40,433 nt of DNA from Sulfurovum sp. (GTDB lineage Bacteria > Campylobacterota > Campylobacteria > Campylobacterales > Sulfurovaceae). Positions 85-31,163 of the stretch are shown here, piece after piece. How positions within the stretch are numbered: the stretch's first letter is position 1; each line of letters starts with the position of its first letter. Where the stretch lies: assembly GCA_027012955.1 (NCBI GenBank), contig JALUYL010000069.1, positions 1 through 40,433 on the forward strand, given 5' to 3'. Below the pieces are notes generated by a model that saw only the letters and a list, made by a program, of their open reading frames with translations, was not told where the DNA came from and did no database searches. A program made the position numbers and the translations under genes.

Positions 85-1719
85 ATGTTTTATAAAACAC
101 TTTTACGTACCACACCTTTGCTACTCTCTGGACTTTTTCTTTTTACTGCCTGTGTCGAAAGAGGGTTTGAACTGAAAGTCAATGACCATACTCGCACTGT
201 CACTGCTGAAAAAGTAGTCGATATACGTGTCACTACGCCTACCACAGAAGCCAAAGACATCAAAGAGATGAACAAAGCTGTCACAAAAGCACAAAAAAGG
301 CAAAAAACAAAAACAACACCTGTTGCAAAAGATGTAGAAGTAAAAGAAGAGGCTAAAAAACAGACCTCTACAAATAAAGCACAAGAAGCTACTTTAGCAA
401 AAGAGAAGGCAAGAGCAGCGGAAAAAGCCCTAGCTGAACAAAAAGCATTAGCAGACAAAAAAGCAAAAGAAGCTAAACGTCTTGCCGTAGAAGAAGAAAA
501 AGCACACCGTGCGCTCGAAGCCAAGCAAGCCAAAGAACAAGAAGCCAAACGTATCGCTGCACAAAAAGAAAAAGCACGTATCACAAAACAAGCTGAAGAA
601 GAACGTAAAGCACTTGAAGCAAAACACTTAGAAGAAGAGAAAGCCAAACGTCTAGCAACCCAAAAAGAGCAAGAACGCCTTGCTAAAAAAGCCCAAGCCG
701 AGCGCAAAGCACTTCAAGCCAAACTTGCCAAAGAAAAAGAAGCCAAACGTCTAGCAGATGAAAAAGAAAAAGCGCTCCTTGCTAAGAAAGCTGCACAAGA
801 AAAAGCTACTCTTGAAGCGAAACTCTCCAAAGAAAAAGCTGCACAAAAAGTCAAACTTGAAAAAGAAGCCCAAGCACGTAAACTTCTTGCAGACAAAAAA
901 GAGCAAGAACGTCTTGCTAAAAAAGCTGCTGCTGAGAAAGCTGCCTTAGAAAAAAGACTCGCTGAAGAAAAACTTGTACAAGCTATCAAAGAGAAAAAAG
1001 AAAAAGACGCCTTAGAACGTAAACTTGCTACACAAAAAGCAGCACAGGCTAAAAAAGAAAAAGACGCCCAAAATGCCCTAGCACGAAAAATGGCTATCCA
1101 AAAGGCAGCACAAGCAAAAAGAGAAAAAGAAGCGCAAGAAGCACTTGTTAAAAAAGTAGCGGCACAAAAAGCGGCACAGGCTAAAAAAGAAAAAGCAGAA
1201 AAAGTAAGCTTAGCTTTAGCACTCCAAAAAGAAAGAGACAAAAAAGCCAAAAGAGAAGAGGTGTACAAAAAGGCTACAGAGAAAAAAGCATCTCATACTG
1301 CAAGTACAGAATCCCTCATCTTTAGACCTTCAGCTCAGACCTACCAAAAGTTTGGTACTTCAGAGATACACGGACATGTCGTCTACCTTACCCCATCGGG
1401 AGAAGAGATAGCCCTTGAAAACAGTAAAATCTACCTTGTATCTAAAAATACAAAAACAGATTATTGGTACAAAAACTACTACCTAAAAAACAGAGAAAAT
1501 GCAACGCTACGTAAAACCATGGTGAACTACATCAATGCCACGCACCTAAACATAGACAGAAACTTTGCTTTTTATGGTTTGGCTACGGGAACCTACTATG
1601 TGATTATCGAGTCACAGTACCCTCGTCACATCGCTAAAAACAAAAAGGTCTACATCGCCAAAGAGATAAAAGTAGAGAAATACAAAAAAATCATGACCGT
1701 CTTTAGTAAAAGACTCTAA
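85..1719 (+). CDS. coiled-coil lipoprotein with Lys/Ala/Glu-rich TolA-like rod
   Basis: This is a predicted envelope lipoprotein of 544 residues. The N-terminus is a signal peptide ending in the lipobox LFTAC, so Cys23 should be lipidated. Residues about 60 to 410 are almost entirely Ala, Lys, Glu, Gln, Leu and Arg in repeating EAKRLA, EKERLAKKA and KAAQAKKEK units, which predicts one very long charged alpha-helical rod like the middle domain of TolA. The last 130 residues are a different, mixed-composition domain (GHVVYLTPSGEE, GTYYVIIESQYPRH) that looks like a small beta-sandwich, perhaps of the carboxypeptidase-regulatory/Cna-B kind. An AGGGA site precedes the ATG. The pgsA gene starts 6 bases after the stop, so they are probably co-transcribed. 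A role as a spacer between outer membrane and cell wall is inference from architecture only. Confidence 0.75.
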   Translation: MFYKTLLRTTPLLLSGLFLFTACVERGFELKVNDHTRTVTAEKVVDIRVTTPTTEAKDIKEMNKAVTKAQKRQKTKTTPVAKDVEVKEEAKKQTSTNKAQEATLAKEKARAAEKALAEQKALADKKAKEAKRLAVEEEKAHRALEAKQAKEQEAKRIAAQKEKARITKQAEEERKALEAKHLEEEKAKRLATQKEQERLAKKAQAERKALQAKLAKEKEAKRLADEKEKALLAKKAAQEKATLEAKLSKEKAAQKVKLEKEAQARKLLADKKEQERLAKKAAAEKAALEKRLAEEKLVQAIKEKKEKDALERKLATQKAAQAKKEKDAQNALARKMAIQKAAQAKREKEAQEALVKKVAAQKAAQAKKEKAEKVSLALALQKERDKKAKREEVYKKATEKKASHTASTESLIFRPSAQTYQKFGTSEIHGHVVYLTPSGEEIALENSKIYLVSKNTKTDYWYKNYYLKNRENATLRKTMVNYINATHLNIDRNFAFYGLATGTYYVIIESQYPRHIAKNKKVYIAKEIKVEKYKKIMTVFSKRL

Positions 1720-23194: not shown

Positions 23195-24307
23195 CTAAGC
23201 CTCGTTTTCTTCTTTTACACTTTTGATGAAATCACCTAATGCATAGCGTAGAGGTTCCGTATTTATATGTGCTACAGAAGAAATAGGAAGTACAAAAAGT
23301 GGCTTCTCTTCAGGAAGTTTTACACCAAAGTCTTTTTCAAACCCATAGGAGATGTAGTCTTCTTTTGCCTTATATTGACTAAGCGTTTTATTGGCTTCAA
23401 GGTCAATATCTTTTAAAAATGTTTCTGTTAAGGCATTAACTTCATCTCGTGATAGAGAATCTATCTTCGTTATGGCTATAGCATGTTTACGTGTTGCCAA
23501 AGTCTCAGAATAACGCGTGAGTTCAACAAGCAGTGTTTCATACTGGTATTTCATCTCTCTATAGTTTGCTGCATCAATCATAAGCAGTAATGTTTTCGTA
23601 CGCTCAATGTGCCTTAAAAACTCTAATCCAAGCCCTCTTCCATCACTTGCACCCTCGATAATACCAGGGATGTCTGCCATCATAAATGAATCAAAATCAC
23701 CCATATGCACCACACCTAGTTTTGGTGTGAGTGTTGTAAACTCATAGTTGGCAACCTGTGGTCTAGCATTTGAAAGTGTGGCGATGAGAGTAGACTTTCC
23801 TACATTTGGATACCCTACAAGACCTACATCGGCTATGAGTTTCATCTCAAGTCTTATCTGCTTGCTGATTCCAGGAAGCCCAGGTTGTGCATAGGTTGGT
23901 CTTTGGTTACTTGAAGATTTAAAGTGCATGTTTCCAAGTCCACCTTTTCCACCTTCTAAAAAGAGTACTGTTTCTCCTTCTGTTAGCAAATCCATAAGTT
24001 CTTCACCAGTCTCCATATCTACCACAGTAGTTCCTGGAGGTACGGTAACAATCAAGTCTTGACCTTTGCGTCCGTAACATTTACTCCCAGTTCCTGGCTG
24101 ACCATTTTCTGCTTTCATATGCACGCGTCCACGAAGTCCTGAGAGAGTATCGGTATTGTTATCTACTTTAAAAAAGACCGCACCACCACGACCACCATCT
24201 CCACCATCGGGACCACCATTAGCTACAAATTTCTCTGTCCAAAAAGAGATGGAACCCGCGCCACCTTTTCCAGAACTCACCATAAGTTCTACACTATCTA
24301 CAAACAT
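23195..24307 (-). CDS. obgE: GTPase ObgE/CgtA
   Basis: ObgE is an essential GTPase linked to 50S ribosome assembly and stress control. The 370 residues contain the glycine-rich Obg domain (about 1-158, [29 protein letters not shown]). The GTPase domain has G1 GYPNVGKS at 165-172, DIPG (G3) and TKID (G4). The usual context is directly after rpmA, but here a plus-strand lipoprotein gene intervenes, so obgE needs its own promoter. Confidence 0.96.
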
Positions 24308-24369
24308 TCATTACACCTTTACTTCTATGAAAACCACTCACATTTTGAGTAGAATAAATTAATTACGTG

Positions 24370-24375
24370 ATTATA
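24370..24375 (-). promoter_or_regulatory. -10 box of the obgE-proB transcript
   Basis: On the minus strand TATAAT followed by CACG lies 63 bases before obgE. Similar TATAAT-CACG sequences precede rplU and ileS. It is close to the divergent promoter at 24398. Confidence 0.45.
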
Positions 24376-24394
24376 TCTAAATTGAGGAAATTAT

Positions 24395-24403
24395 TGCTAT
24401 AAT
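24395..24403 (+). promoter_or_regulatory. extended -10 promoter of the small lipoprotein gene
   Basis: TGCTATAAT is an extended -10 element 28 bases before the start at 24431. It lies back to back with the obgE promoter. Confidence 0.5.
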
Positions 24404-24430
24404 CCATCTATTAATTTAAAAGGAATGAAT

Positions 24431-24739
24431 ATGTCTAAAGCAAAACATCTATCAATCATATTTTCATTTTCTCTCTCAGTTATGTTTACAGGATGTGCGA
24501 CAAGCCGTATACCAGAAAGTGAAGGTGGATACTATCATGAAAAAATTTATTTTGGGAAAGATTTATCTACTAACATGCAAAAAGGTATCGTAGATGGCTG
24601 TATCACAGCAAAAGGGCATTATAAAAAATCTCACACACGGTTTAACCATGACAAAGACTATTATGAAGGATGGTTTTTAGGTCGTAAACAGTGTAAACAT
24701 TTATTGAAGTTTGATGAAAAAGGAGATATTATTTCATAG
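24431..24739 (+). CDS. small lipoprotein of unknown function
   Basis: The 102-residue protein has a signal peptide ending in MFTGC, with lipidated Cys22. The mature part carries two further Cys residues (DGCITAKGHY, GRKQCKHLL) and several Tyr/Trp residues (DYYEGWFLGRKQC), suggesting a compact disulfide-bonded domain. I prefer the ATG at 24431 because AAAGGA is six bases upstream; the ATG at 24425 touches that site. It separates rpmA from obgE on the opposite strand and has its own promoter and terminator, so it is a free-standing insertion in a conserved cluster. Confidence 0.75.
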   Translation: MSKAKHLSIIFSFSLSVMFTGCATSRIPESEGGYYHEKIYFGKDLSTNMQKGIVDGCITAKGHYKKSHTRFNHDKDYYEGWFLGRKQCKHLLKFDEKGDIIS

Positions 24740-24780
24740 AAAACTCCTAGAGAGTTTGTAAATGAGTGTAAAAGTGTAAC

Positions 24781-24806
24781 AAAAGCTATCTAAAGAGATA
24801 GCTTTT
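24781..24806. terminator. bidirectional terminator between the lipoprotein gene and rpmA
   Basis: A perfect 11-bp stem, AAAAGCTATCT with AGATAGCTTTT, closes an AAAG loop. The stem ends give Ts on both strands, and it sits between two converging genes, so it can end transcripts from both sides. Confidence 0.75.
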
Positions 24807-24815
24807 AAAGAGTGA

Positions 24816-25070
24816 CTATGCAGGTATTACTGAAACTTTTTTCTGAGTAGAAGTTCTGTTATCAAATTTAACTACACCTTCAACAAGTGCAAATATAGTA
24901 TGGTCTTTACCCATTCCTACACCATTACCTGGGTGAACTTTAGTTCCTCTTTGTCTGATGATAATGTTACCAGGAATTACTGCTTCCCCACCAAATTTTT
25001 TAACGCCTAAACGACGTCCAGCTGAATCACGGTTATTCTGAGTGGACCCTTGTCCTTTCTTGTGTGCCAT
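24816..25070 (-). CDS. rpmA: 50S ribosomal protein L27
   Basis: L27 reaches the peptidyl transferase centre of the ribosome. The 84 residues begin [20 protein letters not shown] and continue with [19 protein letters not shown], the family signature. No N-terminal cleavage extension of the Firmicutes kind is present. It follows rplU by 31 bases and ends at the bidirectional terminator. Confidence 0.97.
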
Positions 25071-25101
25071 ACTGTGCTCCTTCTTTTAATTAATTTGCGA
25101 T

Positions 25102-25407
25102 TTACGCGATTTTAGTAATTCTAACTCTTGTAAAGTCTCTTCTGAAACCACGTTTGAGTTTTGAATCTTTTCTTCTTCTTTTCTTGTAGATGATAACTTT
25201 TTTATCTCTACCTTCATTGATCACTTCACCTTTAACTACTGCGCCTTCTACGAAAGGAGTACCTACAGTTAAGTCACCATTGTCTAGTGCTAGAACTTCT
25301 TTAAATTCTACAGCTGATTTTGGATCAAGACCCATGTTGTCAAAACAGATGATATCACCCTCTTGAACTTTGAATTGTTGACCACTTGCTTTAATGATTG
25401 CGTACAT
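25102..25407 (-). CDS. rplU: 50S ribosomal protein L21
   Basis: L21 binds 23S rRNA in the large subunit. The 101 residues [18 protein letters not shown] through [23 protein letters not shown] match the family in length and basic C-terminus. It is the first gene of rplU-rpmA, with a -10 box 42 bases upstream. Confidence 0.97.
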
Positions 25408-25448
25408 TGCAAACCCTTTGTTATTCGATGTTTTTTAAAAAGTTCGTG

Positions 25449-25454
25449 ATTATA
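25449..25454 (-). promoter_or_regulatory. -10 box of the rplU-rpmA operon
   Basis: On the minus strand GGGTATAATCACG carries a consensus TATAAT 42 bases upstream of rplU. No -35 consensus is seen. Confidence 0.5.
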
Positions 25455-25508
25455 CCCAAAACTATTTTAATCTAATTTGAAATATAGATACTATTTGACT
25501 ATATAAGT

Positions 25509-25898
25509 CTAAAAAGTATAATCTGCTCCCGCAAGTGCTATACATTCTATCTCAACCAATGCATTTTTAGGTAAAGTTTTTACAGCTATCGTACTACGTG
25601 CCGGCTTGTGTGCACAAAAGTAATGTGCGTACACATTATTGACTGTAGTAAAGTCGTCCATATCTGCCAAATATATAGTTGTTTTAATCACATCATTAAA
25701 GTGTGCACCCGCAGCTTCTAGTACATAAAAAAGGTTTTTCATCACTTGGTGTGTTTGATGTTCAACATCTCTTGTCTCCATCGTACCATCTGGTTTTAAT
25801 GCAATCTGTCCAGAGGTATAGATAAATCCATTTGCTTCTATCGCCTGTGAGTATGGTCCTATCGCTGCTGGTGCCTCTTTTGTTTCTATAAATTTCAT
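25509..25898 (-). CDS. ridA: 2-iminobutanoate/2-iminopropanoate deaminase RidA
   Basis: RidA hydrolyses reactive enamine/imine intermediates released by PLP enzymes. The 129 residues contain IGPYSQAIEANGFIYTSGQI, the conserved Arg101 (in KPARSTIAV) that binds the substrate carboxylate, and the C-terminal VEIECIAL. Full length for the family. It lies 12 bases after a small lipoprotein gene. Confidence 0.93.
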   Translation of the reverse strand: MKFIETKEAPAAIGPYSQAIEANGFIYTSGQIALKPDGTMETRDVEHQTHQVMKNLFYVLEAAGAHFNDVIKTTIYLADMDDFTTVNNVYAHYFCAHKPARSTIAVKTLPKNALVEIECIALAGADYTF

Positions 25899-25910
25899 GT
25901 TTTGTTCCCT

Positions 25911-26252
25911 TTAGTTTGTATTTCTTTCATAGAAGATGTAAGATGTTGAGTAGTCTGAAAATTCAAAATAGACTTTTTTCTCCCCCTTGTCTTTTTTACC
26001 ATTTAAATTTAAATCATCAATCCCATAGCCATATCTATATGGTCTTGCTCCACCATCCGTTGTACCTTTTGCTGTTGATAACTTATCGATGTTGATAAAT
26101 TTATGTACAAGTTTATCTCCTGCATAGATATCAAGCACTCCATTAGTTCCTGTCCAGTTTTGAAGTGAACGGCTCAAGCTGTTTTGTGTCTCTTGCGTAC
26201 ATGCAGTTAAAAGTAACAATGCGACACCTATTAAAAATAATTTTAATTTCAT
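25911..26252 (-). CDS. small lipoprotein of unknown function
   Basis: The 113-residue protein has a signal peptide ending in LLTAC with lipidated Cys18. The mature part contains the acidic loop DDLNLNGKKDKGEKK, which resembles an EF-hand or dockerin-like calcium loop, and ends in aromatic-rich YSTSYIFYERNTN. I choose the start at 26252 because GAGGAGA is correctly placed. A longer frame extends to 26339 into the ThiF-family gene but lacks a site and would bury the signal peptide. Confidence 0.7.
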   Translation of the reverse strand: MKLKLFLIGVALLLLTACTQETQNSLSRSLQNWTGTNGVLDIYAGDKLVHKFINIDKLSTAKGTTDGGARPYRYGYGIDDLNLNGKKDKGEKKVYFEFSDYSTSYIFYERNTN

Positions 26253-26286
26253 AGTCTTCTCCTCAATTTTTAATATTGTAACACTA

Positions 26287-26961
26287 TTAGGCTTTTGGCA
26301 TTCCAAATTTCTGAGTAATAAGTTCACCTTCATCATCAAAATAGAGATAATACAACTTATCTTTCTTCACGGGCAAGCCTGCTAAATATCTCAATGCCAA
26401 GTTTGCTTGCAATGACCCAATATGCATCACAATAGGTGCAGTAATTCCACCGGGTTTATGATCTGAGATATTAAAGACTTGAAAGTTTGCCTCATCAAAG
26501 AAACAGACTTGTCCGTTGAACTCTTCTACAGAAGCATATACCCATGGCGTGTTTGTTGCTTTGGCATGTTTGTCTATCTCTCCACGTACAGGTAGGTTAT
26601 CGGTAGCATCAAGTATGAGGTCATAGCTGTTACACATCTCTTGAAAATCTTCAAAACGCATATCAAAAGCCACTGCTTTGACAAAAGGATTTTTCGACTC
26701 CACAAGTGCACATACAGCTTTGGCTTTATTTTTGCCTTCATCATTCAGAGTAAAGGCTATCTGTCTGTGAATGTTATGAGAAGAGACCGTATCAAAGTCA
26801 ACCATATGTATCTCACCTATACCTGAAGTCCCCAGTGCCATAGCAAGCGTACAGCCAAGTCCACCCGAACCGATAATAGCGATTTTCTTTTTTTCCAAAT
26901 TCTGTTGAACGCTAGAACCCCATAGTTGTATCTGTCTATTAAAGTATTCATTTTGTGTCAT
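26287..26961 (-). CDS. MoeB/ThiF/HesA-family adenylyltransferase
   Basis: Proteins of this family adenylate the C-terminal glycine of small sulfur-carrier proteins (MoaD, ThiS) for molybdopterin, thiamine or sulfur transfer. The nucleotide-binding loop IGSGGLGC is at 30-37. VDFDTVSSHNIHRQ and LDATDNLPVRGEID are the ATP and substrate motifs. At 224 residues it lacks the CxxC zinc cysteines and rhodanese domain of longer members. It overlaps the upstream Abi-like gene by 4 bases. No carrier-protein gene is nearby, so the pathway is uncertain. Confidence 0.82.
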   Translation of the reverse strand: MTQNEYFNRQIQLWGSSVQQNLEKKKIAIIGSGGLGCTLAMALGTSGIGEIHMVDFDTVSSHNIHRQIAFTLNDEGKNKAKAVCALVESKNPFVKAVAFDMRFEDFQEMCNSYDLILDATDNLPVRGEIDKHAKATNTPWVYASVEEFNGQVCFFDEANFQVFNISDHKPGGITAPIVMHIGSLQANLALRYLAGLPVKKDKLYYLYFDDEGELITQKFGMPKA

Positions 26962-27560
26962 ACTGTGTCCTTATTTTTATCATATATTAAAGCTTGAGCA
27001 AAATTACTTATTTCACTATCAAAATATTCTAATAGTGTCAATATATCAGTCTCAATACTTATGTATTCGGATTTATTTATAATTCTTTCATAATGAAATA
27101 CTCTATTTCTAAACTTTCGGATATGATTTAATTTTTTATCCAAGACATTACGATTAATAAATTTAATTTGTTTTCTTGGCATATTAGGGAAAATTTTATT
27201 TATGTCTTGTATTCTTATCAAATTAGAATATGATTTTCTAAAAAGTGAAGTCCAAAATCCAAATGATAATTCAGCAATGACTTTATCATACGTCACTATT
27301 TCTCTTCGACCTAATATTTTATTTTTTGCCTCTTGCACTCTTTTTTTAGTATCACCATGCAAATAATCACTAGAAAGCCAATCAAGAGAGATTTTCTTTT
27401 TAAAATAATCATCTATAGAATTTCGCAAAGAAACTTCAAAAACAGAAAGTAATATATAATGTTTCTCACTTTGTAAAAGGTTTTGTTTATATGCATTAAA
27501 GTTATCATAATTTTCTAAACGTATACTTGTTATAAATCTACACTTGACTTTATCTTGCAC
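26958..27560 (-). CDS. Abi-like (AbiF/AbiD type) HEPN protein
   Basis: Abi_2-family proteins give abortive infection against phages. This 200-residue protein has VFEVSLRNSIDDYF near 40-53, AELSFGFWTSLFRKSYSNL near 96-114, and IRKFRNRVFHYERI. In the last, Arg151 to His156 fits the HEPN RNase motif R-x4-H. It is visibly more AT-rich than its neighbours and has a GTG start with AAAGG. It lies between a nitrilase-fold gene and the ThiF-family gene, overlapping the latter by 4 bases, so it appears to be an acquired defence gene spliced into a housekeeping operon. Phage defence is inferred from family only. Confidence 0.8.
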   Translation of the reverse strand: MQDKVKCRFITSIRLENYDNFNAYKQNLLQSEKHYILLSVFEVSLRNSIDDYFKKKISLDWLSSDYLHGDTKKRVQEAKNKILGRREIVTYDKVIAELSFGFWTSLFRKSYSNLIRIQDINKIFPNMPRKQIKFINRNVLDKKLNHIRKFRNRVFHYERIINKSEYISIETDILTLLEYFDSEISNFAQALIYDKNKDTV

Positions 27561-27639
27561 TTGACATATCCTTTCAATTTTTATATAATAGCATCATGAC
27601 ACCTAGTAAGCCTTTAGCCTTTGAGTTAAAGCTTAGGGT

Positions 27640-28452
27640 TTATATCACGTCTTCTCTTAATTTTAATTCTCTCTCAAATCCCCATGCTTTACGATGTTCT
27701 GTAACCTCAGCTTTGTCTATCACTTCTACAAGCATAGATTCTTTATCTTCAAGCATCATCTCTACTTCGCCTTCAGGTGAGACAAGCATCGTATCACCAT
27801 AAAATTTCCACTTCACTTCATCATCACTGTACTCACCCAGTCTATTGGCACGGAGTACATAACATCCATGTAAGAAGGCTTTGGTTTTAATGATCTCTCT
27901 CCATCTGTTATGAGAGCCAAAAGTAGAAGCCGTAGGGAGTAAAACCAAATCTACTTTTTTACGTGCCACTTGCTCCCAAAAAGGGTCAAAATGCAGCTCA
28001 AAACCTGCCATTACCATTACTTTAAAACCTTTCATAGTAAATGTCATTGCATCTTTCAAAGGTACTACTTTATTGGAAAAAAACTTCTTCTCATTCCAAT
28101 GTGTATAAGGAAGTAAAATCTGCTGTTCATAATAACGCGTATTTTTAGGTGTAATCTTCACAATGGTTTTATAATACCCATCTTTTTTAGTAATGATAAT
28201 AGGTGCCACAAAAACAATGTCATATTTGATAGAAAGATTTTTAAGTAGTTCAAGATGCTTAGTCGTTTGTGCTTTCACCATATTTGGTGCCATCGTTGCA
28301 AACTCTTTAAAAAAGTGGTTCAACACATACTCACCAAGAAGCATCACATCTGCTCCACGTTCATGTGCTTTTTTGAGGTAAAACTCTAGTCGTGTTGCAT
28401 TCATACCAAGTGTTGGTAACTGAAGTGCTGCGACGACTAGCTGTTTCGACAT
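27640..28452 (-). CDS. carbon-nitrogen hydrolase-fold protein with altered catalytic triad
   Basis: The fold of nitrilases/amidases is recognisable: ALQLPTLGMN, ERGADVMLLGEYVL, LLPTASTFGSHNRWREIIKTKA, VLRANRLG and GDTMLVSPEGEV. Glu41 of the Glu-Lys-Cys triad is present. Yet the position of the Lys (Y-x-K-x-x-L-x-P) reads YEQQILLP, with Gln110. The nucleophilic Cys (normally C-Y/W-D/E-x-R-F) reads AGFELHF, with Gly150. The only nearby Cys is 197, outside the active site. As aligned by eye the protein should not hydrolyse nitriles or amides. Its start overlaps the xseB stop by one base (TAATG), so it is expressed with metX-xseB. Confidence 0.8.
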   Translation of the reverse strand: MSKQLVVAALQLPTLGMNATRLEFYLKKAHERGADVMLLGEYVLNHFFKEFATMAPNMVKAQTTKHLELLKNLSIKYDIVFVAPIIITKKDGYYKTIVKITPKNTRYYEQQILLPYTHWNEKKFFSNKVVPLKDAMTFTMKGFKVMVMAGFELHFDPFWEQVARKKVDLVLLPTASTFGSHNRWREIIKTKAFLHGCYVLRANRLGEYSDDEVKWKFYGDTMLVSPEGEVEMMLEDKESMLVEVIDKAEVTEHRKAWGFERELKLREDVI

Positions 28453-28658
28453 TAGTCACTCTCCACATTTTGATTGGCTTGCTCGATGATTGTTATCTTC
28501 GTTTTTGCATCTTCTATCAGTGTTTGTGCTTCTTTAATGTTCTTTAAACCCTCTTCATAAAGCTTCACTGACTCTTCGAGTGTTATCTCAGGATTCATAA
28601 GTTTTTCAAGTAGCTCTTTTGAGTGTTCTAATTTTTCTTCAAAACTTTGTGCTTTCAT
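28452..28658 (-). CDS. xseB: exodeoxyribonuclease VII small subunit
   Basis: XseB forms a complex with XseA that degrades single-stranded DNA. The 68 residues SFEEKLEHSKELLEKLMNPEITLEESVKLYEEGLK in pattern match the family, including the helix with L-E-x-S-V/L-x-L-Y-E-x-G. It overlaps metX by 4 bases (ATGA) and the nitrilase-fold gene by one. The gene xseA is not in the window. Confidence 0.92.
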   Translation of the reverse strand: MKAQSFEEKLEHSKELLEKLMNPEITLEESVKLYEEGLKNIKEAQTLIEDAKTKITIIEQANQNVESD

Positions 28659-29749
28659 TTCAGTACCTCTTTTATATTTTCTTCAAATTTATCTAACTCT
28701 ACCAAAAAGGCATCATGCCCATAGTCACTCTCTACTTCCAAGTACGTATGTTTCTGCCCATTACGTTCCATCATCTTAGCGATGTGCTCCATTTCCGAAG
28801 GAAAGAACAGATAGTCCGAAGAAAAGCTTATGAGATGCACATTGGCTTTTATGCGACTAATAGCATCATGTAAAGAGTCATATCCACGGCTCAAGTTAAA
28901 CGTATTAATTGCTTTGACTATATAAAGGTAAGAGAGTGGGTCAAAAATACGTGAGAAATTGTTCGTATTATACTCCATATAACGCTCTACTTCATAACGT
29001 CCAAAGAGTTCAAAAAGACCATCATTGTTTACATAGTTACGTCCAAACTTATCATCCATCGAATCAGGAGAAAGGTAAGAGATGTGCCCTGCGATGCGTC
29101 CTATAGCTAGTCCATCTAAGCCCTCTTCTTTAAAGTCATCTTTCTCATAGTTCCCATGCTTAAAACGTGGGTCTCTACGTATAGCTTCTACAGCTACTTT
29201 GTTAAAGGCTATCGTCCAAGGACGTGTGGCATACGTGGCTGCCAAAGAGATGATGTCATCTGCAAAGTTAGGATAATCTACAGCAAATTGAAGTGCCTGC
29301 ATACCACCCATAGAACCACCCACTACAGCCCGTACATGGTGAATGCCAAGATCAGAGAGTAAATGCATTTGCGCACGTATCATGTCTTTGATGGTTACGA
29401 CTGGGAATTTAAGTCTGTAAGGTGCTTGTGTCATATAGTTATTACTCATGGGTCCCGTAGTACCAAAACAAGAGCCTACAACATTTGTAGAGATGATAAA
29501 ATATTTATTCGTATCTAAGGCTTTACCCTCACCGATGAGCCCATCCCACCAACCAGCTTTACGCTCACCTTCATACACACCAGCAGCATGATGAGAACCA
29601 GAAAGCGCATGACAGACTAAAATAACATTAGACTTGTCCTCATTTAACGCACCATAGGTCTCATACGCTATCTCATAAGGCTCTAAAATACGCCCACTTT
29701 CTAGGTACAAAGGGGAGCTAAAATGGGCTGTTTTGGTTTCGATTTTCAT
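28655..29749 (-). CDS. metX: homoserine O-acetyltransferase
   Basis: MetX acetylates homoserine from acetyl-CoA for methionine synthesis. The alpha/beta-hydrolase fold has the nucleophile Ser146 in VGGSMGGMQAL, the acidic residue in SFSSDYLFFP and the His in ESDYGHDAFL. CHALSGSHHAAG and NVVGSCFGTTGP match the MetX family. The length of 364 is normal. It works with MetY encoded 154 bases upstream on the same strand, separated by an inverted REP pair. Confidence 0.95.
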   Translation of the reverse strand: MKIETKTAHFSSPLYLESGRILEPYEIAYETYGALNEDKSNVILVCHALSGSHHAAGVYEGERKAGWWDGLIGEGKALDTNKYFIISTNVVGSCFGTTGPMSNNYMTQAPYRLKFPVVTIKDMIRAQMHLLSDLGIHHVRAVVGGSMGGMQALQFAVDYPNFADDIISLAATYATRPWTIAFNKVAVEAIRRDPRFKHGNYEKDDFKEEGLDGLAIGRIAGHISYLSPDSMDDKFGRNYVNNDGLFELFGRYEVERYMEYNTNNFSRIFDPLSYLYIVKAINTFNLSRGYDSLHDAISRIKANVHLISFSSDYLFFPSEMEHIAKMMERNGQKHTYLEVESDYGHDAFLVELDKFEENIKEVLK

Positions 29750-29807
29750 AGACTGCTTTTGTGCTTAAATTTATTGATAATATTTTATCGTATTTGTGCT
29801 TTGTTTT

Positions 29808-29899
29808 GTAGGTCGGGGTGTCCTCTCCCCGACATGAAGTTGAAAATCATAATATATTTGCATGCAAAGTGATGTCGGGGAGAGGACACCCCGACCTAC
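29808..29899. repeat. inverted pair of REP-like palindromes between metX and metY
   Basis: A 28-bp perfect inverted repeat (29808-29835 and 29872-29899) surrounds a 36-bp spacer. Each arm starts with GTAG followed by GTCGGGG, an 8-base loop and CCCCGAC, so each arm is itself a REP-like hairpin, with the two GTAG heads facing outward. The spacer holds a perfect 12-bp palindrome TTTGCATGCAAA (29857-29868). The element begins four bases after the metY stop. Confidence 0.8.
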
Positions 29900-29903
29900 G
29901 ATT

Positions 29904-31163
29904 TTACCCCAAAGCTCTTTTCAAATCCTCTATCAAATCTTGTGTATCTTCAAGCCCAACAGAAAGACGTACAAGTCCTGCAGGAATGCCAGCTTCTACA
30001 AGCTCTTTGTCTGAAAGCTGTTGGTGTGTAGTACTTGCAGGATGCGTGATAATAGACTTAGAATCACCTATGTTTACTACTACTGCAAATATATCTGTAC
30101 CATCAGCTATTTTCTGTGCTGTCTCTTTATCTGCTACCTCAAAAGAGAGTAGTCCTGAGTGTCCACCTTTGAAGTACTTTTGTCCTAATTCATAATTGGC
30201 ATCAGATTTCAACCCTGGATAGTTTACTTTACTCACTTTAGGATGTGCTTCTAAAAACTCTGCGATGCTAAGAGCCGATGAAGAATGTTGCTTCATTCGT
30301 AAAGGTAAAGTCTCTAAACCTTGTATATTCAGCCAAGAGTTAAACGGTGCAGGTGTAGCACCCAAGTCACGCATGAGTGATAGTCTTACTCTAAGTGTAA
30401 AGAGTGGCAAAGGTAAATCACTATACACAAGCCCATGATAACTTTCATCTGGCTCGTTAAAGTGTGCGTAACGTGGGTTGCCTTTTATCTTCTCTACCAA
30501 GTCATTACGCTCTATCATCATACCACCAAGCGCAATCCCTTGCCCTGTCGTGTATTTACTCGTACTATGCACAGTCAAGTCCACTCCATGGCTAAACGGT
30601 TTACAAAGTATTGGTGTACCCACAGTATTATCTACACAGGTCAAGATGTTATGCTTGTTAGCAATAGCCACAATCGCATCAAAATCGGCTACATCAATGC
30701 TAGGATTTGTGATACTTTCAAAAAGGATGATCTTTGTTTTATCATCTACCAATGCTTCTATCTCAGAGGGGTTTCGCACATCAAAGTAACGTGTCTCAAT
30801 ACCAAAACGTTTAATGGTATGCCCAGTCAGCGTAGTAGTCCCACCATACACTTGTTTTGCCACGATGATGTTATCTCCAGCTTCAGCCACATTGGCAATG
30901 GCATAAAAGATTGCCGCCATTCCAGATGCAGTAGCAATCCCTGCCAATCCACCTTCAAGTGCAGCAAAACGCTTTTCAAACACATCTGAAGTAGGATTCA
31001 TAAGCCGTGTATAGATATTCCCAAGTTCTTTGAGTGCAAAGAGGTTTGCCGCATGTTCCGTATCTCTAAACTCATACGCTGTCGTTTGATAAATAGGAAC
31101 AGCCATAGTCCCCATACTGTCTTTATCATATCCTGCGTGTATTGCTATTGTTTGTTCATGCAT
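29904..31163 (-). CDS. metY: O-acetylhomoserine sulfhydrylase
   Basis: MetY is the PLP enzyme that condenses O-acetylhomoserine with sulfide to homocysteine. The 419 residues include TVHSTSKYTTGQG with the PLP-binding Lys203, NPTSDVFEKRFAALEGG near the N-terminus, and CVDNTVGTPILCKPF. The C-terminal HPASTTHQQLSDKELVEAG and VRLSVGLED are typical. It pairs with metX. Its ATG lies only 12 bases downstream of the stop of a ParE-like toxin gene, with AAGGAAAAA as ribosome binding site inside that gap, so metY may be transcribed from the toxin-antitoxin promoter. Confidence 0.95.
   Translation of the reverse strand: MHEQTIAIHAGYDKDSMGTMAVPIYQTTAYEFRDTEHAANLFALKELGNIYTRLMNPTSDVFEKRFAALEGGLAGIATASGMAAIFYAIANVAEAGDNIIVAKQVYGGTTTLTGHTIKRFGIETRYFDVRNPSEIEALVDDKTKIILFESITNPSIDVADFDAIVAIANKHNILTCVDNTVGTPILCKPFSHGVDLTVHSTSKYTTGQGIALGGMMIERNDLVEKIKGNPRYAHFNEPDESYHGLVYSDLPLPLFTLRVRLSLMRDLGATPAPFNSWLNIQGLETLPLRMKQHSSSALSIAEFLEAHPKVSKVNYPGLKSDANYELGQKYFKGGHSGLLSFEVADKETAQKIADGTDIFAVVVNIGDSKSIITHPASTTHQQLSDKELVEAGIPAGLVRLSVGLEDTQDLIEDLKRALG

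Follow-up and report, generated by a model that had tools for sequence, protein, structure and literature searches.

Among the housekeeping genes of Sulfurovum sp., a short Abi-type gene ends within the start of a ThiF-family gene, which raises the question of what this gene works with: the ThiF-family protein whose start it overlaps, or something else nearby. We addressed it in the window, the whole 40,433-nucleotide stretch of contig JALUYL010000069.1 that was analysed. The contig is part of a 1.72-Mb genome of 110 contigs, with a completeness of 75.8%.

An acquired Abi gene between two host genes

The gene, termed abi (26958-27560, minus strand), starts with GTG and encodes a 200-residue protein, a putative RNase toxin of short AbiF-like HEPN type. 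Its stop codon shares the ATGA at 26958-26961 (-) with the start codon of the downstream ThiF-family gene thiF (26287-26961, -), and a carbon-nitrogen hydrolase gene, nit (27640-28452, -), lies upstream. Both neighbours are host genes outside the module, assigned by Pfam matches to ThiF (158.5 bits) and CN_hydrolase (66.4 bits), respectively. The G+C content of abi is 24.7%, compared to 37.6% for the window; of 797 stretches of 603 bases sampled, 2 reach this value or fall below it. The first-pass annotation, which described an AT-rich Abi gene with an R-x4-H motif between housekeeping genes and a four-base overlap with its ThiF-family neighbour, was correct on these points. The neighbour belongs to the ThiF family, as annotated; however, its name "moeB" is not established, because the 224-residue protein, with ThiF as the sole Pfam domain above cut-off, scores far under the NCBIfam cut-offs for both MoeB (104 against 376.55) and ThiF (132 against 275.25). 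Downstream of thiF, an ORF at 25911-26339 (-) contains a lipoprotein-like stretch (read by eye) and has no Pfam match; taken in its longest frame, it overlaps the last part of thiF.

Comparison with relatives revealed that abi is an insertion. Of 150 relatives, counting the genome of the window, 149 contain a ThiF-family match, and the best 30 loci of these ThiF-bearing relatives, one of them the window itself, were compared. At all 29 non-self loci, nit directly adjoins thiF with no Abi match in between. Alignment of these empty sites to the window gives an insert of ~680 bases (26962-27640, -, approximate extent), which consists of abi and its upstream sequence, including the RNA gene described below. 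No convincing direct repeats or target-site duplication were found at the insert edges. An Abi protein match occurs in only nine of the 150 relatives, again counting the genome of the window, and the named relatives of the Abi gene among genome contigs are three, all of them Sulfurimonas records. The conservation of its homologues, together with a confidently predicted fold, shows that abi is a genuine gene rather than a random ORF.

The pairing of abi with thiF is not repeated elsewhere. Within the stretches fetched, thiF lies beside Abi at none of 15 other Abi loci (L003-L017), a set that includes some distant, partial or perhaps chance Abi matches. Counting the window, eight of 15 close homologues have an abi stop that overlaps the beginning of the following gene by 1 to 11 bases (L004 is among the eight only if its ATG is used), and the overlapped genes are thiF in the window and, in the others, those of HsdS, MurB, FlhB, an Eco57I-type methylase and a recombinase-like gene. 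HsdS in L003, MurB, FlhB, the methylase and a CAP12/TIR protein mentioned below were named by Pfam, and hsdM, hsdR, the recombinase and the HsdS of L072, L074, L075 and L104 from their translations by eye. The module often ends within the start codon of whichever gene follows, so the overlap with thiF needs no functional link. Since the homologues of abi sit in such unrelated contexts and thiF is kept in place in relatives that lack abi, the suggestion of the first-pass annotation that the two genes are more than a chance pair is not supported; its simpler alternative, that a defence-type gene was acquired between a nitrilase and a ThiF-family gene, fits the empty sites and the sparse distribution of Abi. 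A CBASS or Bil-like E1 system was also considered and rejected, as the ThiF domain stands alone and thiF stays without abi at the 29 loci; among the ORFs of 24000-31000, whose translations were read by eye and in part profile-searched, there is no E2, JAB or CD-NTase partner. A probable divergent RNA, which had been overlooked, is a more interesting candidate partner of abi than ThiF.

The Abi protein resembles AbiF

Profile searches place the protein near, rather than within, the Abi_2 family. The match to Pfam Abi_2 (PF07751) is weak, with 20.2 bits and an E-value of 8e-4, below the gathering score of 25.6, so the earlier label "Abi_2-type" holds only loosely. The best PADLOC defence profile is PD-T4-5, with 49.9 bits and an E-value of 6e-14; it is a partial match to a profile without a curated cut-off, as the window protein covers only part of the 309 positions. 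PD-T4-5 is the best PADLOC profile for the relatives of the protein as well, with 48-177 bits where matching. Residues 151-156 read R-N-R-V-F-H, an R-x4-H motif (R151 and H156) that is conserved among the homologues; the R/H pair is reported to be required for AbiF toxicity (PMC12373285).

The AlphaFold model, computed from an alignment of 20 sequences, is all-helical, with a pLDDT of 93.2 and a pTM of 0.87. Structural similarity search using Foldseek gave PbAbiF bound to its ncRNA as the top PDB match, with an E-value of 0.14 and a probability of 1.00, and no match reaches an E-value of 0.001. Alignment by VIA-align against the same complex (PDB 8vz6) yielded a Z-score of 11.7, with an rmsd of 4.1 over 188 of 200 residues, although for helical bundles a Z-score under about 13 may reflect a common arrangement. 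The following matches are Csm6' (5.7), Csm6 (4.7) and HEPN-MNT (4.1). Kinship with AbiF is suggested by this gap in Z-score, by the coverage and by the shared R-x4-H motif, and the model is consistent with abi encoding a short, AbiF-like, putative HEPN ribonuclease. No Cas13 chain is found among the best 50 structural matches listed, which is no evidence against kinship.

A putative structured RNA upstream of abi

A conserved non-coding element lies upstream of abi and of its relatives. A search with alignment A1 over 397 genomes of the phylum gave matches at E <= 1e-3 in 56 of them, and 15 close homologues, the window included, were gathered from this search and from earlier loci for carrying the window-type element. 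In the window, model R1 matches 27593-27646 on the plus strand, the ends being approximate, with 68.3 bits and an E-value of 5.1e-18; the window belongs to the training set of R1. We propose this element to be a divergent structured small RNA and a putative antitoxin. Its core is a conserved bulged hairpin of 38 nt (27601-27638, +) with 14 consensus pairs and the loop CUUUGA. It is a single divergent hairpin, with no tandem repeats.

Covariation analysis supports this hairpin. RNAalifold on alignment A2 gave 14 pairs at -15.3 kcal/mol, nine of which show compensatory changes. Over 14 distinct rows, 96.4% of the 196 cells are paired, compared to at most 57.1% when the pairing is slid, and the covariation score of 0.574 (0.225 in shuffles) was equalled by none of 500 shuffles. 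Folded as a single sequence, the window RNA differs from the consensus, with a z of -1.40.

The same 14 pairs also indicate the strand. Read on the abi strand, 85.2% of the cells are paired. The 22 cells that no longer pair equal in number the G-U cells of the divergent strand; on the abi strand, these pairs contain no G-U. Because the consensus pairs come from folding the divergent strand, this comparison somewhat favours that strand. Within the inner helix, columns 25-34 by themselves contribute eight G-U cells. When the abi strand was folded independently, it attained no better than -6.15 kcal/mol, and two other column pairs there contain G-U pairs. An RNA on the abi strand was rejected as the weaker candidate, both by the mirrored pairs and by this independent fold. 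The G-U cells of the 14 shared pairs are thus confined to the strand that does not encode abi, and transcription of the RNA is probably divergent from that of abi.

Terminator-like hairpins are distributed in the same sense. Over 36 loci, the better hairpin is on the divergent strand in 19 and on the abi strand in none, with 17 tied or absent; hairpins are present on the divergent strand in 21 loci and on the abi strand in six, in a scan run without a shuffle control in which some hits lie beyond the RNA. For the window RNA, neither of two scans called an intrinsic terminator. Searches against Rfam found no match at E <= 5 in 26200-28600, no RF03085 match at E <= 1 in this genome, and no match at E <= 1 in ten relatives. 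Among 17 further loci there are six matches at E <= 5; the single one to pass its cut-off is a tmRNA in L070, located at a distance from the element.

A consensus promoter divergent from abi

Between abi and the RNA lies a sigma-70-type promoter, TTGACA-17-TATAAT (27561-27589, +), which matches the consensus at 12 of 12 positions, points away from abi and has its -35 box abutting the abi GTG. It is the only 12/12 site in 26900-28700. The genome assembly contains 23 such consensus sites, this one included, with spacers of 16-18, compared to none for the reversed control pattern.

The promoter signal extends to the homologues. In 23 of 26 loci, which include near-duplicates such as L066 and L067, the promoter score is higher on the divergent strand. 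It exceeds shuffles at p <= 0.05 on the divergent strand in 17 of the 26 loci and on the abi strand in one, and the mean scores are 9.5 for the divergent strand, 5.3 for the abi strand and 5.5 for divergent-strand shuffles. Ten later plasmid loci gave a higher divergent score in eight, with p <= 0.05 in only three on the divergent strand versus one on the abi strand. Around four RF03085 RNAs, taken as a control, the same strand scores better in two. Since the abi strand has no promoter exceeding shuffles at 25 of the 26 loci, transcription of abi would probably start in front of the gene upstream and read through into abi.

RNA copies that lack a toxin gene nearby

Searching R1 over 298 genomes of the phylum gave ten matches with E < 1e-9. 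Five lie beside abi, all of them in the training set, and the other five (L099, L100, L102, L103 and L104) are orphans, with no match to this particular Abi family in 1.5 kb on either side. The orphan RNAs lie at about 1501-1554 of each locus, have E-values from 3e-15 to 7e-10, and none of them belongs to the training set. In the 150 relatives, R1 passes E < 1e-9 six times: four hits adjoin abi (training set), and two are orphans counted already. The orphan RNA of L104 is located between HsdM-like and HsdS-like genes, and that of L100 beside a CAP12/TIR protein. Weak R1 matches, with E-values from 3e-5 up, were set aside: 19 of the 20 fetched (L105-L124) have no abi match, with one at E 0.80, and those of L105-L109, the five for which ORFs were listed, overlap long ORFs. 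The weak matches were treated as chance.

Some loci keep the RNA beside a damaged toxin gene. In L079, abi is truncated and the RNA is retained (R1 54.2 bits, outside the training set); in L015 (4151-4747), five residues covering R-x4-H are lost in-frame and the RNA is kept. L016 (1684-2244) lacks eight residues of a helix in-frame and also keeps the RNA. From their sequences, L015 and L016 are perhaps inactivated toxins. The reverse case, abi without the RNA, does not occur among the 15 close homologues, a set gathered for having the element. An RNA that is kept without its toxin is the asymmetry expected of an antidote.

In viral contigs, the type A RNA pattern was not found, and the type B pattern, described below, was found in nine contigs. 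Five of these are accompanied by Abi on the opposite strand at a distance of ~150 nt, four of them being nearly identical, and the other four (L127, L134, L129 and L132) have no Abi in the stretch examined. L129 (1887-1916) and L132 (773-802) share one sequence, which is adjacent to tRNA-Trp and has HNH-like genes in its vicinity; this type B-like phage RNA is possibly a decoy antitoxin. Type B-like RNAs without Abi also lie at 7657-7688 of L127 and at 4113-4145 of L134. In L134, a prophage-like contig, the RNA follows a 387-residue ORF without a Pfam match, which is perhaps a different partner of the RNA. A lytic cyanophage carrying abiF RNA has been reported (PMC9964418).

Related elements beyond the close homologues

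Plasmid homologues from Pseudomonas, E. coli, Bacteroides, Klebsiella and Aeromonas carry an element of a second kind, type B, in which a short stem is flanked by CCUCUC and GUGAU. A divergent promoter-like site with p <= 0.05 is present in four of these five homologues. Covariation was left uncounted for type B, the alignment being poor in the outer stem. R1 finds no element at 11 homologous loci (L006, L007, L011, L060-L064 and L076-L078), where the elements were assigned by eye; position, short motifs and promoter scores are therefore what joins these loci to the RNA family. The divergent strand of L007 reads GCCUCUCAACGAUGCU, identical to part of the RF03085 consensus, and on account of this identical stretch type B RNA and RF03085 RNA are probably related. 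The L007 RNA shares only 16 contiguous nt with that consensus, and an RF03085-like pattern of 17 specified bases has no match in L007.

Ten more plasmid homologues come from Alphaproteobacteria, Gammaproteobacteria, Actinomycetota and Bacteroidota. Six of the ten were scanned, among them a nearly full-length relative of PD-T4-5 (L158, 177.4 bits). Within 260 nt, a terminator-like hairpin is present on the divergent strand in nine of the ten and on the abi strand in two, which makes these candidate RNA genes.

Canonical AbiF with its RF03085 RNA is also present in the phylum, with four strong matches in 150 relatives, three of them over the cut-off. In all three loci that have an AbiF gene (L048, L049 and L051, the last with its gene identified by eye), the RNA and the AbiF gene are on the same strand, and the two scanned proteins (L048 and L049) score 172 and 204 bits for Abi_2. 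At 1501-1537 (-) of L050, an RF03085 abiF RNA over the cut-off has no AbiF gene beside it, its ORFs having been judged by eye. In other families of the phylum, L080-L092 and L094 contain distant Abi-like genes with 22-41% identity in the aligned parts. The distant Abi loci L080-L094 have no R1 match below an E-value of 0.26 and were left out of the counts; L080-L092 and L094 possibly use another antitoxin.

Proposed mode of action and alternatives

We consider it likely that abi and the divergent RNA form a ~680-base RNA-protein toxin-antitoxin module inserted between nit and thiF. AbiF toxins are reported to be neutralised by direct RNA binding (PMC12373285). In the window, an RNA of roughly 50 nt would be read from the consensus promoter pointing away from abi, and would bind the HEPN dimer and silence it, as AbiFr and RCd22 do for AbiF. 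The abi gene, which has no clear promoter of its own, would probably be expressed by read-through from nit. Were host transcription to halt, for instance upon takeover by a phage, or the module to be lost, the RNA would decay first; the freed RNase would then cut RNA and growth would stop, an outcome that might serve phage defence.

The RNA could instead act on the message, as a type I-like or mixed antitoxin that base-pairs with the abi leader and blocks translation or destabilises the mRNA. It is encoded opposite that leader, which would be fully complementary to it if abi is read through from nit, and such read-through fits the finding that, at 25 of 26 loci, no promoter on the abi strand exceeds shuffles. 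However, pure antisense pairing needs no covarying hairpin, RNA copies are kept far from any abi leader, and the core is shared with abiF RNA, which acts on protein; we regard this mechanism as unlikely.

Quite improbable is a cis-acting leader, in which the hairpin would be part of the abi mRNA and work as an attenuator or translational switch rather than as a separate RNA. The hairpin does lie directly upstream of abi and could partly form on the abi strand, as seen from the mirrored cells and from the independent fold with its own G-U pairs, but the G-U cells of the shared pairs are confined to the opposite strand, the promoter is divergent and the RNA also exists without abi. That the RNA is a guide, a precursor of crRNA which directs the nuclease to its target RNAs, seems more improbable still: AbiD/F has been proposed as an ancestor of Cas13 (PMC12165695) and there are weak Cas13d profile matches, with E-values of 0.005 (window protein) and 0.0014, yet the aligned element of 15 relatives has no variable spacer-like part, and orphan RNAs would be useless as guides. 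For Abi and ThiF as one functional defence pair there remains scarcely any likelihood, because, against the translational overlap and the ThiF domains contained in PADLOC E1-E2 profiles, thiF is kept at all 29 empty sites and is missing from the stretches fetched around the 15 other Abi loci, and abi overlaps unrelated genes elsewhere.

Comparison with known systems

The proposed toxin-antitoxin module most resembles AbiF-AbiFr and AbiF-RCd22 of C. difficile (PMC12373285), where the toxin is Abi_2 and the antitoxin an RF03085-type RNA. They share the HEPN fold (8vz6), the R-x4-H motif and a small structured RNA adjoining the gene, but differ in layout and in both components. In AbiF-AbiFr, the RNA precedes the toxin gene and is read in the same direction, compared to the divergent RNA of the window, as judged from promoter, G-U cells and fold; the window RNA is unmatched by RF03085; and canonical AbiF has 292-297 residues (L048 and L049), whereas the window protein has 200 and stays under the Abi_2 cut-off. 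PD-T4-5, whose profile is the best PADLOC match of the window protein, is described as a plasmid-borne abortive-infection gene of E. coli and a distant relative of AbiF/D (PMC9519451); in the main text of that paper, the term "non-coding RNA" does not occur.

By analogy, the pairing of an RNA antitoxin with an RNase toxin also recalls the classical type III systems ToxIN, CptIN and TenpIN (PMC5086642). In these, RNA repeats, terminator and toxin follow one another on one strand as a single operon, an arrangement common to all type III systems according to a review of 2016 (PMC5086642); by contrast, the window RNA is divergent and has no repeats. Among the matches listed in a literature survey that covered subscription journals thinly, no title or abstract opening reports short Abi_2/PD-T4-5 genes with a divergent RNA. 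If no other paper has it, the divergent layout is new among AbiF-like and type III-like systems.

The anticodon nuclease PrrC is encoded within a type I restriction locus. Several Abi homologues and one orphan RNA similarly lie between or beside hsd genes; however, PrrC is a different protein, and the genes that surround the module in the window are metabolic.

Implications

The homologues of abi, up to PD-T4-5, may share the divergent layout. We put forward, as a proposal for which the balance is about even, that short AbiF-like HEPN toxins, PD-T4-5 included, and divergent structured RNAs absent from Rfam constitute a separate branch of modules, with members in Campylobacterota, Gamma- and Alphaproteobacteria, Bacteroidota and phages. 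Such modules would nest in operons by ending in the next start codon, and their RNA would be kept alone, in bacteria and on phage contigs, as an anti-addiction gene or an anti-defence decoy. AbiF has been proposed as an ancestor of Cas13 (PMC12165695), and its RNA is a possible forerunner of crRNA. If the proposal is true, an independent RNA gene with its own promoter would show how the RNA partner uncouples from the toxin gene, a step that any RNA-guided system needs. PD-T4-5, described without an RNA in the main text of its report (PMC9519451), would become a testable RNA-toxin pair, and a PD-T4-5 clone that omits the divergent RNA would lack its antitoxin. The orphan RNAs, in turn, predict a role in anti-addiction or in phage counter-defence.
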